From positions 1 through 57,340 of the IMG/VR virus record IMGVR_UViG_3300030102_001647: DNA of 57,340 nt. One strand, given 5' to 3'. The notes under the pieces are model-generated. The model made no database searches. It was not told the DNA's origin and saw only the letters and a list, made by a program, of their open reading frames with translations. Each line of letters starts with the position of its first letter. The first letter of the stretch is position 1. The position numbers and the translations under genes were made by a program. Of this stretch, positions 5,951 to 20,160 are shown piece by piece. The stretch is from a virus.

Positions 5951-7153
5951 ATGGCTTATGGACAAAATATGAACGCACCAATGTCAGGGCTAATGGGATT
6001 AGCTGCTATGAAGGGACGTATGGGTGATAATACGTTAGTGCATGTTAATCCTATGGAACTTAAAACACTGGATGCACTAGCAGGACCGGGAGGTTTAACA
6101 CAGAATCCTGTTACTGGTTTGCCAGAAGCTTTTAAAATTAAAGACTTACTTCCTGCTCTTCTTGCTGTTGCTGCTCCATTTGCTGTACCTGTTGCTTTAG
6201 GTGGTGCAGGTTTAGGGGCTGCTACAACTGGTGGAATAGGTGCGCTTGCTGCTGGTGCTGGTGCTGCTACTGGCACAGCTTTAATTGGTGGTAATAGAGA
6301 AGAAATATTAATGTCTGGTCTTGCTAGTGGATTAACTGCTGGTTTAACAGGAGGTTTAGATAAGGCTGCTTCAGGTGCTGTAACAACAGGTGTTAAAGAA
6401 GGTGCAATAGGGGCTGGTACAGCAAATGTGGGAGCAAGCGGTCTTAGTCAACAAGCAGGTTCTAGGCTTATAGGTGATGCATCTTCTGACGCATTAGCAA
6501 AAACTATTACAGATGCAGGGCTTACAGGCGCAGCAGAAACAGCAGCAACACAACTTGGTCAAGAAGCTTTTGCAAACCAAGCATTAAAAAGAGGTGTTGC
6601 TACAGGATTAGCTGCAGCCGCAACATCACCTGCAATGTTTGATGTTCCTGCTGGTCCAAAAGGTGTTGCTCCACCTACTACAGTTCCAGCTACACAAATG
6701 ACACAGACAGCTTCTAAAGAAGATATAGATAGATACATTAGACAAGGAGGTGCTACACCTCAGTTCTTTAGCTATTCACCTGTACAAATACCTGCACAGT
6801 TTGGCGGCATGGCTGCTGAAGGTGGAAGTATGGGAGATGTACCTGCAACTTATATGGCACAAGGTGGTGATACAGGAATGTTTTCTGGAATGGTAGAAGC
6901 ACCAGAAGGTGATGGTATGTCAGACAATGTATCATTTGAAGTTGTGGGCGACCCACAAATTAAACAAGCAATGTTAAGTCCTGACGAATATGTTATGGAT
7001 GCATTTACAGTAGCAGCATTAGGCAATGGTTCTTCTGATGCTGGTGCAGAAAAACTAGATGAATTTAGATTAGCTTTGAGAGAGAAAGTATATGGTAAGG
7101 AGGCACAGCCCAAACAGGTTGATGGGGCTAAAGAACTTAGCCGACTTACTTAA
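5951..7153 (+). CDS. Internal virion (ejection) protein candidate, Ala/Gly-rich
   Basis: 400 residues. A conserved-looking opening, RMGDNTLVHVNPMELKTLDA, resembles proteins next to the ejection genes of marine podoviruses. Residues ~75-220 are strongly Ala/Gly-rich with hydrophobic runs (LPALLAVAAPFAVPVALG, AALAAGAGAATGTALIGG types) that could insert in a membrane. The C-terminal third is acidic (MVEAPEGDGMSDNVSFEVVG). With the two larger downstream genes it parallels the three-protein internal core of T7 or P22. The stop and next start overlap as TAATG. Near its 3' end, bases 7098-7110 match the loop of the leader hairpin at 20106-20118. Confidence 0.55.
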   Translation: MAYGQNMNAPMSGLMGLAAMKGRMGDNTLVHVNPMELKTLDALAGPGGLTQNPVTGLPEAFKIKDLLPALLAVAAPFAVPVALGGAGLGAATTGGIGALAAGAGAATGTALIGGNREEILMSGLASGLTAGLTGGLDKAASGAVTTGVKEGAIGAGTANVGASGLSQQAGSRLIGDASSDALAKTITDAGLTGAAETAATQLGQEAFANQALKRGVATGLAAAATSPAMFDVPAGPKGVAPPTTVPATQMTQTASKEDIDRYIRQGGATPQFFSYSPVQIPAQFGGMAAEGGSMGDVPATYMAQGGDTGMFSGMVEAPEGDGMSDNVSFEVVGDPQIKQAMLSPDEYVMDAFTVAALGNGSSDAGAEKLDEFRLALREKVYGKEAQPKQVDGAKELSRLT

Positions 7154-16309: not shown

Positions 16310-16409
16310 TAATCCATGCCTGTATTTGTTTTCTGAATGAACGTACATCATATAACAGCCAGCATAGAGGTACAAGACACAAAGCTAATAGTATAATTTC
16401 AATCTTCAT
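16290..16409 (-). CDS. Micro-gene, 39-residue membrane peptide
   Basis: ATG at 16409, inside the last codons of the small terminase gene; stop inside the start of gmd (20-base overlap). The N-terminal [19 protein letters not shown] is a membrane anchor or signal-like segment followed by a charged tail ending NEDKDK. It exactly bridges two real genes in a tightly coupled operon. Function unknown. Confidence 0.5.
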
Positions 16410-16845
16410 CTTCTATTTCCTCGTCTTGAAAATCCTCTGGAAAGGTTTCCATAAGTAGTTCGTAAATCTTTTCTTTTCCGATAACCTGCATTGCTCCTCG
16501 TATCTCTCCTTCAAGAGAATCAATGTCATCTGAGCTTTCATCTTCGGCGTTATTACCCCTAACTCTTGACAATAGTTCAAGTGCTTTAAGCGCAGTCTGC
16601 CCGTGTCCCTGAGACTTGGCTGCCTCATATTGTTTCTCCAGTTCCTCAATGACATCAACGTCCGTAGTAAACTCACCTTCTAACTCCTTAATTCTTTCCT
16701 TGACATCCTCACGTTGTAGTAAGTTGTATCCTTGATTGTAAGCAGAGCGTTCACTGTATCCTGCTGCCTCTGCTGATTTAGTAGCATTACGACTAACAAC
16801 ATAATGCTGACAAAACTTTTCTTGCTTCTCCTTTAACTCTGGCAT
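16399..16845 (-). CDS. terS: Terminase small subunit
   Basis: 148 residues. The N-terminal part (LKEKQEKFCQHYVVSRNATK, then SAEAAGYSERSAYNQG and LLQREDVKERI) is the typical helix-turn-helix DNA-binding region of the terminase_2 family, which recognises phage DNA and positions the large subunit. An oligomerising helix follows (VIEELEKQYEAAKSQGHGQ), then a very acidic tail ([12 protein letters not shown]). Unusually it lies on the opposite strand and about 21 kb from the large subunit at 37432, inside the sugar cassette. The start overlaps the upstream gene by 13 bases. Confidence 0.88.
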   Translation of the reverse strand: MPELKEKQEKFCQHYVVSRNATKSAEAAGYSERSAYNQGYNLLQREDVKERIKELEGEFTTDVDVIEELEKQYEAAKSQGHGQTALKALELLSRVRGNNAEDESSDDIDSLEGEIRGAMQVIGKEKIYELLMETFPEDFQDEEIEDED

Positions 16846-19124
16846 TCTTCCTCCGCAAAAGTTCTATATTTATTTTTGTAGAAAGATTGTTCCCATAGTT
16901 GAGCAACTAAACTGTCTTTACCATAATATCTAATGTTTAATTGTAGTGCGTGTTCTTCCCACATTTTTTCTAAGTCTTGAGCAAGTGCTAATAGTTCACC
17001 AGTTGTAAAGAATTTTTTACCACCTGTTTCTACATGTATATATTTAGGATTACCTGCCTCGTCTTTCAATTCCTTTTGTTCCTCTGTTACATTAGGTATA
17101 CTACAATCAAAACCAAATAGGTGAATATTATGATACCCTAAAGTATCCAGCATTCCTATTGTTCTTGTTGCTGCTGCCGTGCCGCCAGATATTAAAACTG
17201 CTCCGTCTTTTATACCAGACTTTTTATCAATAACTACTTTATCTGTAATTGATTCATCACGAATACCATTTGTAAAAGCATGGAAGCCACGTATCTTATC
17301 TGTCTTACTCATAATGTGACGAGTAACAGAAGGGTCTGTCATTGATGCAATATAGAATACAGTTTCTTCTGGTATTGTTTCAAACAGTTCGGTTCTTTTT
17401 ACACCGTGTGTACTTATACCTTCAATAGGTCTAGGGTCAAGGACAAGACAAGCATCAGGAATAATATCCTTCTCTATAAGTTTAGGAAGTGCGTGTTTAA
17501 CACACCATATTTTTGCATTATACTTTTTCTTTACACGTTTTAAATTTTTAAAATCTATTACACCTCCAGACACAACAGCCACATGTTCGTCTGTAGGTTT
17601 ATATTTTTTTACTAAATCATAGTTACTAATAAGCTCTAGGTTTTCTTTTATATTAGCACGTATGTAATCGCTAGGAACGCAGTCTTTAGGCTTAACAACT
17701 ATTGGAGTTCTAATTAGTTGTTGTGGTAATTCCTTTACTTCTTTTTTAAGCAGCACCGCTAGATGAACATGAGAACCAAAAGCTGTCATGTCGCTAGAAG
17801 GTAAAACATATTTGTTTCTTTCTGTAGCTTCTTCAAATGTTTTAATAATACCTGAGTGTTCCTCTGGAACTTCTTTATCATCATCGTGAAAGCTGTAGTA
17901 ATCATCAAACACAACTATAGGTACTTGTCTAAGATACTTGTAGTCACTAGACACTGTGTCATAAGAATGACCGCCATCAATATATGCAAGGTCTACATCA
18001 TTAAACTGATGTGAGTCCATAGTAATTTTGGTATCGCCTTTGTATAGAGTAAATGTAAATCCCTTGCCGTTCTCTTTCATCTTCTGAGAGAATTCTCTTA
18101 GCCTATTACTAACTGCATTGTATGCGTTATGCTGTTTAATGTTTAACTCAATTCTATCTGTTTCTTCTGTAGCATCTTCAAACAAATCAAAGCCACGATA
18201 ATGTACACTATCTACATTCTCGAAAGCAGCTAGAGCCATTTCAATAGCCCTGCCACCATTCCAAGTTCCTGTCTCAACAATAGAGAAAGAGGACAGTCCT
18301 TCACTGTAACTACGAACTATATCTGCTAGTTGTTTATATCTTTTTGGTCCTTGAATATCTTTAGATACTGTGTCTAACTTAGGCTTATCGTATTTTAAAT
18401 TTCCTTTGTTATGTATAAAGTAATCTTTTAGAGCAGAGTTTTCAAAGACTGCTAGTCCACGAACACCTTCTGATAGGTTGTGTGTTTTAGTTCCATGTGC
18501 TTTGTAAATATTTAACAAGCGTTCAAATACAAAAGAGTCTGTCCATTCACGATAAGCCAACACCTCGTTGGTATCATATGCACCTCTAATATCTACAAGC
18601 ATAGACACTGCGTTGTGCATACCCATATTCCATCCGACAAAACCTGTTTCACTGTAGTCAATATCAATACGTCCAAGGTGAACCACATCACTATCATCTG
18701 GTAATATTTTAGCGGCATCTTCTGCTGTAAATTTTGTAGTTGTAATTGTATCTGCGTCTAACCAAACCAACCAGCTTGAGTATTCTTGGTCTATAAGTTC
18801 GTAGGCTAAGTCTGTATAAGCATATACTTTATGGCAGAATCTTATAGCATCCATTCGATAGTTATAAGGTGCTTCTGCGTAACGCCCATTCTTATCTTTG
18901 TTACGAGTTATAAAATCTTGTCTAGCTTTTAGTTTGTCTAAATCTCTGTATTCAATAAAGCTTGCCTCTGGTACGTCTGGTTTCTCAGAACCAAAGCCAT
19001 CATAATACACAACCAATCTAAAGTCGTCTGGATTCCAGTTATCTACAACTGACTCTAGCATTTGCTTTGCATACAAATCAAAATGCTCTTTGTTAAAAGC
19101 TGTTACAAAAGTATATTTACTCAT
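16833..19124 (-). CDS. Three-part glycosyltransferase / methyltransferase / MptE-like fusion
   Basis: 763 residues with three recognisable parts. Residues ~1-250 are glycosyltransferase-like with a DxD metal motif (D123-A-D125 in WLVWLDADTITT). Residues ~280-415 look like a class I SAM methyltransferase of the Methyltransf_24 type: VETGTWNGGRAIEMAL at 283, and YIDGGHSYDTVSSDY at 381, the usual acidic loop. Residues ~515-745 resemble DUF115/MptE-like proteins of surface glycosylation loci (VSGGVIDFKNLKRV, PDACLVLDPRP, ISGGTAAATRTIGMLDTLGY). It starts on an ATGA overlap with the downstream glycosyltransferase's stop at 19121. It probably builds or caps a sugar chain on the host surface or on the virion. 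Each domain call is by motif; the fusion as a unit is not one I know. Confidence 0.7.
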   Translation of the reverse strand: MSKYTFVTAFNKEHFDLYAKQMLESVVDNWNPDDFRLVVYYDGFGSEKPDVPEASFIEYRDLDKLKARQDFITRNKDKNGRYAEAPYNYRMDAIRFCHKVYAYTDLAYELIDQEYSSWLVWLDADTITTTKFTAEDAAKILPDDSDVVHLGRIDIDYSETGFVGWNMGMHNAVSMLVDIRGAYDTNEVLAYREWTDSFVFERLLNIYKAHGTKTHNLSEGVRGLAVFENSALKDYFIHNKGNLKYDKPKLDTVSKDIQGPKRYKQLADIVRSYSEGLSSFSIVETGTWNGGRAIEMALAAFENVDSVHYRGFDLFEDATEETDRIELNIKQHNAYNAVSNRLREFSQKMKENGKGFTFTLYKGDTKITMDSHQFNDVDLAYIDGGHSYDTVSSDYKYLRQVPIVVFDDYYSFHDDDKEVPEEHSGIIKTFEEATERNKYVLPSSDMTAFGSHVHLAVLLKKEVKELPQQLIRTPIVVKPKDCVPSDYIRANIKENLELISNYDLVKKYKPTDEHVAVVSGGVIDFKNLKRVKKKYNAKIWCVKHALPKLIEKDIIPDACLVLDPRPIEGISTHGVKRTELFETIPEETVFYIASMTDPSVTRHIMSKTDKIRGFHAFTNGIRDESITDKVVIDKKSGIKDGAVLISGGTAAATRTIGMLDTLGYHNIHLFGFDCSIPNVTEEQKELKDEAGNPKYIHVETGGKKFFTTGELLALAQDLEKMWEEHALQLNIRYYGKDSLVAQLWEQSFYKNKYRTFAEEECQS

Positions 19125-19891
19125 CCAAGTGACTCCATTAATTTTTCTGTATATATTTTATCTTGGAATAGTTTCCATTCAAAGGAATACTCCTCGTCTA
19201 TTTTTCTTTTAGCTTCCCATTTATCAAACCAAGGACCACCTGTGGTGAAGTGTACGTTCTTTGCTTCTATGTTTGCAGGGCTGTGTCCGTCTAGCCAGTT
19301 CCATTCTTCGTGTATATCGCCTATCTCATCGTCTTGTAGCCAAGACAATCTATGTAACCAACCACCAGACTTTAGGTTAACATCGTCAACAGTAAGCTCT
19401 TTTGTTTTTTCATGGTCACAATTAAATAACATAAAGCTAGACCAGTTCTTTCTATGGTATTGTGTCTGGACAACTCCATCCATCTTCTTACCTACATCAG
19501 GAGTATACTTGTGTTTAACACAAGAGACTGCATACTCTTTCCTGCTACCATACTGGTCAAAGATTTGTTCGATGTCAGCACGTACAAACATATCAGAGTC
19601 CATAAATAATGCAAGACCTGTGTATTGATTTAAAGCAGGTACTAAAAATCTTGTGAATGTAAAGTCAGTGCTGAATGGCTTCCTGTCAAAGTAGTCTATC
19701 TTCTGTCGAGGATTACTCTCATCAACAAAAATAGTTCTACGGAATAGTCCTGCACGACGCAGCGCAGGTTCTATCAGAGGTACGATAGGAAACTTATCGC
19801 AATACTTTCTTATTGAACACATCAAAACCTCGTAAGCCTGATGGTCACGAGGGTCATAACCTATATAGATTGTAGGTTTTTTATTAAACAT
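19121..19891 (-). CDS. Glycosyltransferase, GT8-like
   Basis: 256 residues. Begins TIYIGYDPRDHQAYEVLM. A nucleotide-sugar metal motif DxD occurs at D98-S-D100 in ALFMDSDMF, preceded by FTRFLVPALNQY, and a late HFTTGGPWFDKWE fits the acceptor end of GT-A enzymes. Predicted cytoplasmic, no membrane segment. The start lies in an 8-base ATGTTTAA overlap with the small gene upstream; the stop overlaps the start of the 763-residue fusion by 4. Sugar and acceptor unknown; gmd in the same operon makes a GDP-deoxyhexose a likely donor. Confidence 0.75.
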   Translation of the reverse strand: MFNKKPTIYIGYDPRDHQAYEVLMCSIRKYCDKFPIVPLIEPALRRAGLFRRTIFVDESNPRQKIDYFDRKPFSTDFTFTRFLVPALNQYTGLALFMDSDMFVRADIEQIFDQYGSRKEYAVSCVKHKYTPDVGKKMDGVVQTQYHRKNWSSFMLFNCDHEKTKELTVDDVNLKSGGWLHRLSWLQDDEIGDIHEEWNWLDGHSPANIEAKNVHFTTGGPWFDKWEAKRKIDEEYSFEWKLFQDKIYTEKLMESLG

Positions 19892-20054
19892 CGTCAGGTA
19901 AATCTATAGATTCCAAATCTTCTGGTGTCGTTGTTTGTGCTACGCTTTGTATTTTTTTAATAACATCAATAGATACTTTAGCTGGCAACTCTCCCAGACC
20001 TGCTAAAATAACGTTAAGTTCTTCTGTAGTAAATGTTAATGTCCATGTTTTCAT
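19884..20054 (-). CDS. Small hypothetical protein, 56 residues
   Basis: Starts MKTWTLTFTTEELNVILAGL and ends EDLESIDLPDDV. A strong AGGAG sits 8 bases before the ATG, immediately after the U-run of the leader hairpin. The stop overlaps the glycosyltransferase start as ATGTTTAA. A TFTTEELNVILAGLGELP layout occurs in small proteins of other marine phages. First gene of the sugar-cassette operon; function unknown. Confidence 0.65.
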   Translation of the reverse strand: MKTWTLTFTTEELNVILAGLGELPAKVSIDVIKKIQSVAQTTTPEDLESIDLPDDV

Positions 20055-20065
20055 TGTGTTCTCCT

Positions 20066-20127
20066 AAAAAAAAATAAAGCGGTAGCTGACCTAGAGAGAG
20101 AGGAAAGGAGGCACAGCCAGCTACCAC
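20066..20127 (-). terminator. Leader hairpin with U-run: attenuator or small RNA end
   Basis: Read leftward, GGTAGCTG (20125-20118) pairs with CAGCTACC (20088-20081), extendable to 10 pairs with one G-U. The 29-base pyrimidine-rich loop contains CCTCCTTT. The stem is followed by GCTTTA and nine T. This is the form of a factor-independent terminator, but the promoter's expected start point lies at its first base, so transcripts would begin inside the hairpin. The Shine-Dalgarno of the next gene begins right after the U-run. The long loop makes terminator efficiency uncertain. Confidence 0.6.
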
Positions 20128-20131
20128 AATA

Positions 20132-20160
20132 ATTATACTAAATTTAATTTAGTATGTCAA
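20132..20160 (-). promoter_or_regulatory. Consensus sigma-70 promoter with inverted repeat
   Basis: TTGACA (160-155), exactly 17 bases, TATAAT (137-132): a perfect match to both boxes at ideal spacing. The TTGACA overlaps the TGA stop of the upstream gene. A 9-base perfect inverted repeat (ATACTAAAT / ATTTAGTAT, 20135-20155) fills the spacer and the edges of both boxes, a plausible operator. It drives the small gene, glycosyltransferases, terS and gmd. Confidence 0.8.

Follow-up and report, generated by a model that had tools for sequence, protein, structure and literature searches.

In a 57,340-nt stretch of viral DNA (IMG/VR record IMGVR_UViG_3300030102_001647, positions 1 to 57,340; hereafter the window), we found a consensus sigma-70 promoter that leads straight into a conserved RNA hairpin on the minus strand. 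Comparative evidence supports a genuine hairpin at the predicted 5' end of the transcript, positioned to control the sugar/terS operon (Table 1). The element is probably a promoter joined to a structured 5' leader of an operon in this marine phage, in which a 5'-terminal stem-loop would protect the message and leave the Shine-Dalgarno (SD) sequence open.

Promoter, hairpin and operon in the window

TTGACA-17-TATAAT (20160-20132, minus strand) scores 12/12 as a sigma-70 promoter and is the sole perfect -35/-10 pair in the 57.3-kb virus record, where a first-order Markov model of the window predicts 0.075 such pairs per genome. A sequence-only reading had described this promoter as ideal, which we confirmed (12/12, unique in the genome), and had noted a 9-base palindrome within it, which we located in the spacer as TACTAAATT-A-AATTTAGTA. 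The palindrome is perfect in the close relatives L004 and L009, has about four mismatches in L013 and is absent in L101; it was rejected as a candidate operator because it decays among relatives and is kept only in some close ones. The same reading placed the start point at the beginning of the hairpin and, by spacing, the predicted +1 (G20125) does coincide with the outer end of the stem, with a G at the predicted +1 position in most stem groups.

Table 1. Features of the promoter, leader and operon in the window
Feature	Position	Strand	Basis or remark
-35 hexamer TTGACA	20155..20160	-	Shares bases with the TGA stop of the 63-aa ORF lying upstream (20348-20157)
-10 hexamer TATAAT	20132..20137	-	Spacer to -35 of 17 nt
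Predicted transcription start, +1 G	20125	-	Predicted from spacing (7th base past -10)
Hairpin 5' arm GTGGTAGCTGGC	20116..20127	-	Folding and covariation
25-nt pyrimidine-rich loop TGTGCCTCCTTTCCTCTCTCTCTAG, 84% C/T	20091..20115	-	Identical in 13 close contigs
Hairpin 3' arm GTCAGCTACCGC	20079..20090	-	Folding and covariation
U-rich spacer TTTATTTTTTTTT	20066..20078	-	Terminator-like only in the window's clade
Shine-Dalgarno AGGAG	20061..20065	-	Read from sequence
First operon gene, 56-aa protein, no known family	19884..20054	-	ORF
Second operon gene, glycosyltransferase-like, 256 aa	19121..19891	-	PHROG 28018 (unknown function)
Remaining operon genes, for a 763-aa MptE-like/methyltransferase protein and the terminase small subunit	16399..19124	-	Domain matches

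The hairpin had been described as having 10 pairs; it is real, but its stem (20127-20079) comprises 12 pairs including G-U pairs (13 in the minimum free energy, MFE, fold), and the 10 are the inner ones. As that reading stated, nine U follow, the 3' tail TTTATTTTTTTTT being an A and then nine T. The U-run adjoins AGGAG (20065-20061), followed by AACACA and the ATG at 20054, a point absent from the earlier reading, as is the overlap of the -35 hexamer with the TGA stop upstream. The MFE of the 92-nt window transcript was -21.8 kcal/mol with a dinucleotide-shuffle z of only -1.3, which is unremarkable, and thus the case for the hairpin rests on comparative evidence. For a random site, the probability of a stem with 10 or more pairs placed like this in a leader is ~0.0015 (29/20000).

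The 56-aa product of the first operon gene had no match in Pfam or PHROG, and the best named-phage match of the 256-aa protein is annotated as a glycosyltransferase (GT). The upstream neighbours encode a 63-aa protein and a B12-dependent ribonucleotide reductase. The closest named phages are roseophages for this reductase (about 72%) and HTVC103P-type pelagiphages for the window's DNA polymerase (47%), and the host is probably alphaproteobacterial.

Conservation and distribution of the leader

The -10 hexamer, stem and loop are kept nearly letter for letter in 13 close contigs, where the sole stem change seen (CCGC to CCAC in L013) turns a U-G pair into a U-A pair. Within the viral collection, a 20-base string from the loop occurs only in these close contigs. 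More distant HMO-2011-type phages, whose loci were fetched via neighbouring proteins before pattern scans added L257, L316 and L349, carry near-perfect promoters followed by hairpins with different stem letters. Across 18 members the stem begins 3-10 nt past the -10, at the predicted +1 in most groups and after 2-4 unpaired bases in the L102 group, and the loop measures 21-30 nt. SD and ATG come directly after the hairpin in all members, with GGAG ahead of the start codon in 18/18 and a distance from predicted +1 to ATG of 68-73 nt, likewise in 18/18. In the MFE folds of most groups the SD is unpaired; a few groups (e.g., L102 and L180) have part of it in small, weak helices.

For the pair count, each distinct stem was represented by its ten arm pairs, set in register between constant anchors, because MAFFT alignment of the full leaders misregistered some 3' arms. 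Among 8 distinct stem types and ten outer pairs, 80/80 cells were paired and none was broken, although this 100% arises partly by selection because some of the 8 types came from scans that required a stem. Double-sided changes filled 26 cells, compared with 6.8 in shuffles, and controls with slid partners were 32-64% paired versus 100% for the true register. The covariation search that the sequence-only reading had put forward as a check therefore came out in favour of the stem, with changes on both sides at 9/10 pairs.

We further surveyed GT orthologue loci, a set chosen without any stem requirement. A hairpin was present at the best promoter within 420 nt in 34 of the 38 loci with at least 65% identity, and in the remaining four (L012, L085, L178 and L201) it lies further upstream; the far-upstream hairpins of the L085 and L178 contigs are those seen as L011 and L013. 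Below 65% identity, the hairpin was absent from all 30 loci that could be tested. A promoter (11-12/12, 17-nt spacer) precedes the GT gene in nearly all orthologues, including nearly all of those below 65%, and the hairpin is thus probably an added module; this distribution suggests that an older promoter gained the hairpin, or else lost it. The element stands at one place per record (8 records examined), and the first gene behind it varies, being a member of the 56-aa family, the glycosyltransferase itself, a 215-aa protein or, in L257, another protein. A different arrangement was seen in L205, L206, L207, L208, L209, L210 and L211, where the same promoter has the GT ATG 6 nt past the -10, so that the GT mRNA would be leaderless in that lineage.

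Rfam gave nothing at the gathering threshold for the phage leader, BLAST of the element found no named phage, and 0/30 matches to the promoter plus CCTCCTTYC in bacterial genomes had a matching +1 hairpin leader. By reading, the gap past the ribonucleotide reductase gene holds no such leader in CRP-1, CRP-345, CRP-235, CRP-207 or HMO-2011. Two other contigs carry similar arrangements. In L301, an apparently unrelated phage contig, a promoter on the minus strand (9692, reverse-complement coordinates) is followed by a 14-pair hairpin with loop aatctcacttttttctctctctcaac, an SD and an ATG, which is possibly a convergent or transferred UC-loop leader. L116 has a divergent candidate at 6178, directly past the reductase gene, with a GGCTGTTGTGC/GCACAACAGCC stem, a nested pyrimidine loop and a poor promoter.

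Termination, loop pairing and other possible roles of the hairpin

The sequence-only reading had interpreted the hairpin as either an attenuator or the source of a small RNA of about 60 bases, and neither was upheld as a conserved function. As an attenuator, the hairpin and U-run would form an intrinsic terminator past the promoter, with a factor or ribosome event setting read-through. The window's clade does have TTTATTTTTT(TTT) behind a strong stem, like an intrinsic terminator. However, the U-run is present in L001-L013 and absent in L101, L102, L122, L257 and L316; outside the window's clade the stem runs into, for example, ACCTTATATTGGAG, CTTATAGGAG or TTAGGAGG, and SD and ATG stand directly behind it throughout. 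As the U-run belongs to that clade alone, termination is not the common function. The loop, at 21-30 nt (25 nt in the window), is also long for a terminator, in which it is short (3-8 nt); the terminator scan, which allows loops of up to 8 nt, made no call here, and no alternative antiterminator pairing was seen. Attenuation is thus unlikely as an explanation of the element, and partial termination may occur in the window's own clade.

Promoter-into-hairpin arrangements of other kinds were also observed. In the viral contigs L352, L358, L382 and L389, TTGAC-18-TATAAT leads into a short G+C hairpin that does carry a U-run (e.g., GGAGGGGACCTTCCCCTCCTTTTT), immediately 5' of an ATG; these are true promoter-into-terminator arrangements, and apparently recurrent ones. 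At 1667 in L101, a promoter is immediately followed by a small hairpin (TTGCTGC-AAGAG-GTAGCAA) and TTTTTT, before another gene (MTVITGKAYWA). L305 (245-400) has a promoter, about 20 nt further on an 11-pair hairpin with loop agattcctctctcactctctcacttct, and then a second promoter-like sequence.

The loop motif stays constant while the stem letters change. CTCTC (RNA CUCUC, often CCUCCUUUC) is found in the loop of every group, and in a loop-blind scan that fixed the promoter and 5' arm it was carried by 11/11 hairpins of this lineage and by 0/14 hairpins from other phages. The window loop contains CCTCCTTT at 20111-20104, and thus the anti-SD string noted in the sequence-only reading is indeed there; CCUCCUUU, the anti-SD end of 16S rRNA, is common in loops but missing from the L102, L180, L201, L122 and L316 groups. 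A free 60-nt RNA whose anti-SD-like loop blocks the ribosome sites of other mRNAs would draw on this string, and on the promoter, stem and U-run that the window's clade provides. It is nevertheless highly improbable, given that CCUCCUUU is not shared by all groups and that every member is fused to SD and ATG at a near-constant distance. A trans target in the phage genome was rejected, as the window offers, besides the element itself, a single site complementary to the loop, with 3 mismatches. Together, the absence of the U-run outside the clade and the constant presence of SD and ATG identify the element as an mRNA leader rather than a conserved terminator or a free small RNA.

We also considered a translational switch in cis, similar to that of the alpha operon, in which a loop-SD pseudoknot would shut the ribosome site until a signal arrives. 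The window's CUCCU is able to pair with AGGAG (by inspection, as many as 7 bp in L257), and the leader resembles the Alpha operon ribosome-binding site (Rfam RF00140) in its large-loop 5' hairpin, A/U spacer and AGGAG. The match to that model is weak, however (17.6 bits against a curated cut-off of 38, E 0.038), and the resemblance is architectural only, the operon here being a phage rather than a ribosomal-protein operon. Own-loop/own-SD duplexes were no stronger than swapped pairs and were weak or absent in several groups, on which ground the pseudoknot was rejected; we therefore doubt strongly that the leader is such a switch.

Alternatively, the nascent hairpin and UC loop could act on RNA polymerase or Rho, as a put-like antitermination element or a Rho trap, and so promote read-through of the operon. 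The position at +1, the portability between genes and the unpaired UC-rich loop would fit, since the Rho primary site prefers YC. In contrast, put-type RNA has two adjacent stem-loops, whereas the folds of all groups show one main stem-loop, and no terminators were identified downstream, leaving this a decidedly unlikely role.

A probable stabilising leader and its implications

The leader reading fits the features common to the group best. The stem lies near the predicted 5' end, is conserved as a structure, and is followed by SD and start codon, as in a stabilising leader; the arrangement therefore most likely shields the message and aids its translation rather than stopping it. Transcription from a host-type sigma-70 promoter would begin at the first pairs of a hairpin 10-15 pairs long, and the mRNA would have a paired 5' terminus, a single-stranded loop rich in U and C, and an exposed SD. 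Assuming that mRNA decay in the host proceeds via RppH and RNase E, which need a single-stranded 5' end, the paired end would shield the mRNA from 5'-end-dependent decay, and the open ribosome site would allow high expression of whichever gene is behind the leader. Points against such protection are that the more distant orthologous operons manage without the hairpin and that unpaired bases precede the stem in the L102 group.

Known leaders offer structural parallels, and the assignment to 5'-terminal stem-loop leaders rests on structure, with a putative function. The T7 phi10 (gene 10) leader, which we fetched and folded, similarly has 63 nt and forms a hairpin from +1, followed by A/U-rich sequence with little structure, an SD and an ATG, but differs in its 8-pair stem, 5-nt loop, T7 RNA polymerase promoter and lack of a long UC loop; no sequence relationship between the two was seen. 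We know of no conserved pyrimidine loop in the E. coli ompA and papA stabilisers. These chromosomal stem-loops, whose stabilising effect has been measured, likewise have a base-paired 5' end, which guards the mRNA against 5'-dependent decay (PMC3997798, its refs 93-95). The same source describes single-stranded 5' ends as the target of RppH and RNase E and states that mRNA is stabilised when a 5' hairpin is added to it (PMC3997798).

Simple 5' protection does not explain the conserved UC-rich loop, which would be kept for a sequence-specific reason, most likely because a protein binds it, ribosomal protein S1 being one candidate. A more specific and tentative proposal is that the loop is the docking site of a particular phage or host protein (e.g., S1, a cold-shock protein or Rho), in which case the element would be a new and portable RNA control module of HMO-2011-type marine phages, acting in cis to switch or boost whichever gene is behind it.

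Our literature searches turned up no description of this element, and the principal paper on HMO-2011-type genomes makes no mention of promoters or hairpins (PMC9038755); RNA-level control of these phages appears little studied. The leader is a covarying RNA element outside the Rfam families, in a lineage of the HMO-2011-type phages, which are a dominant group among marine viruses. It also offers a natural comparison, with the promoter and operon found in three forms, bearing a structured leader of 70 nt, a plain and short one, or hardly any. Should a protein indeed bind the UC loop, the element would constitute a compact, portable expression module.
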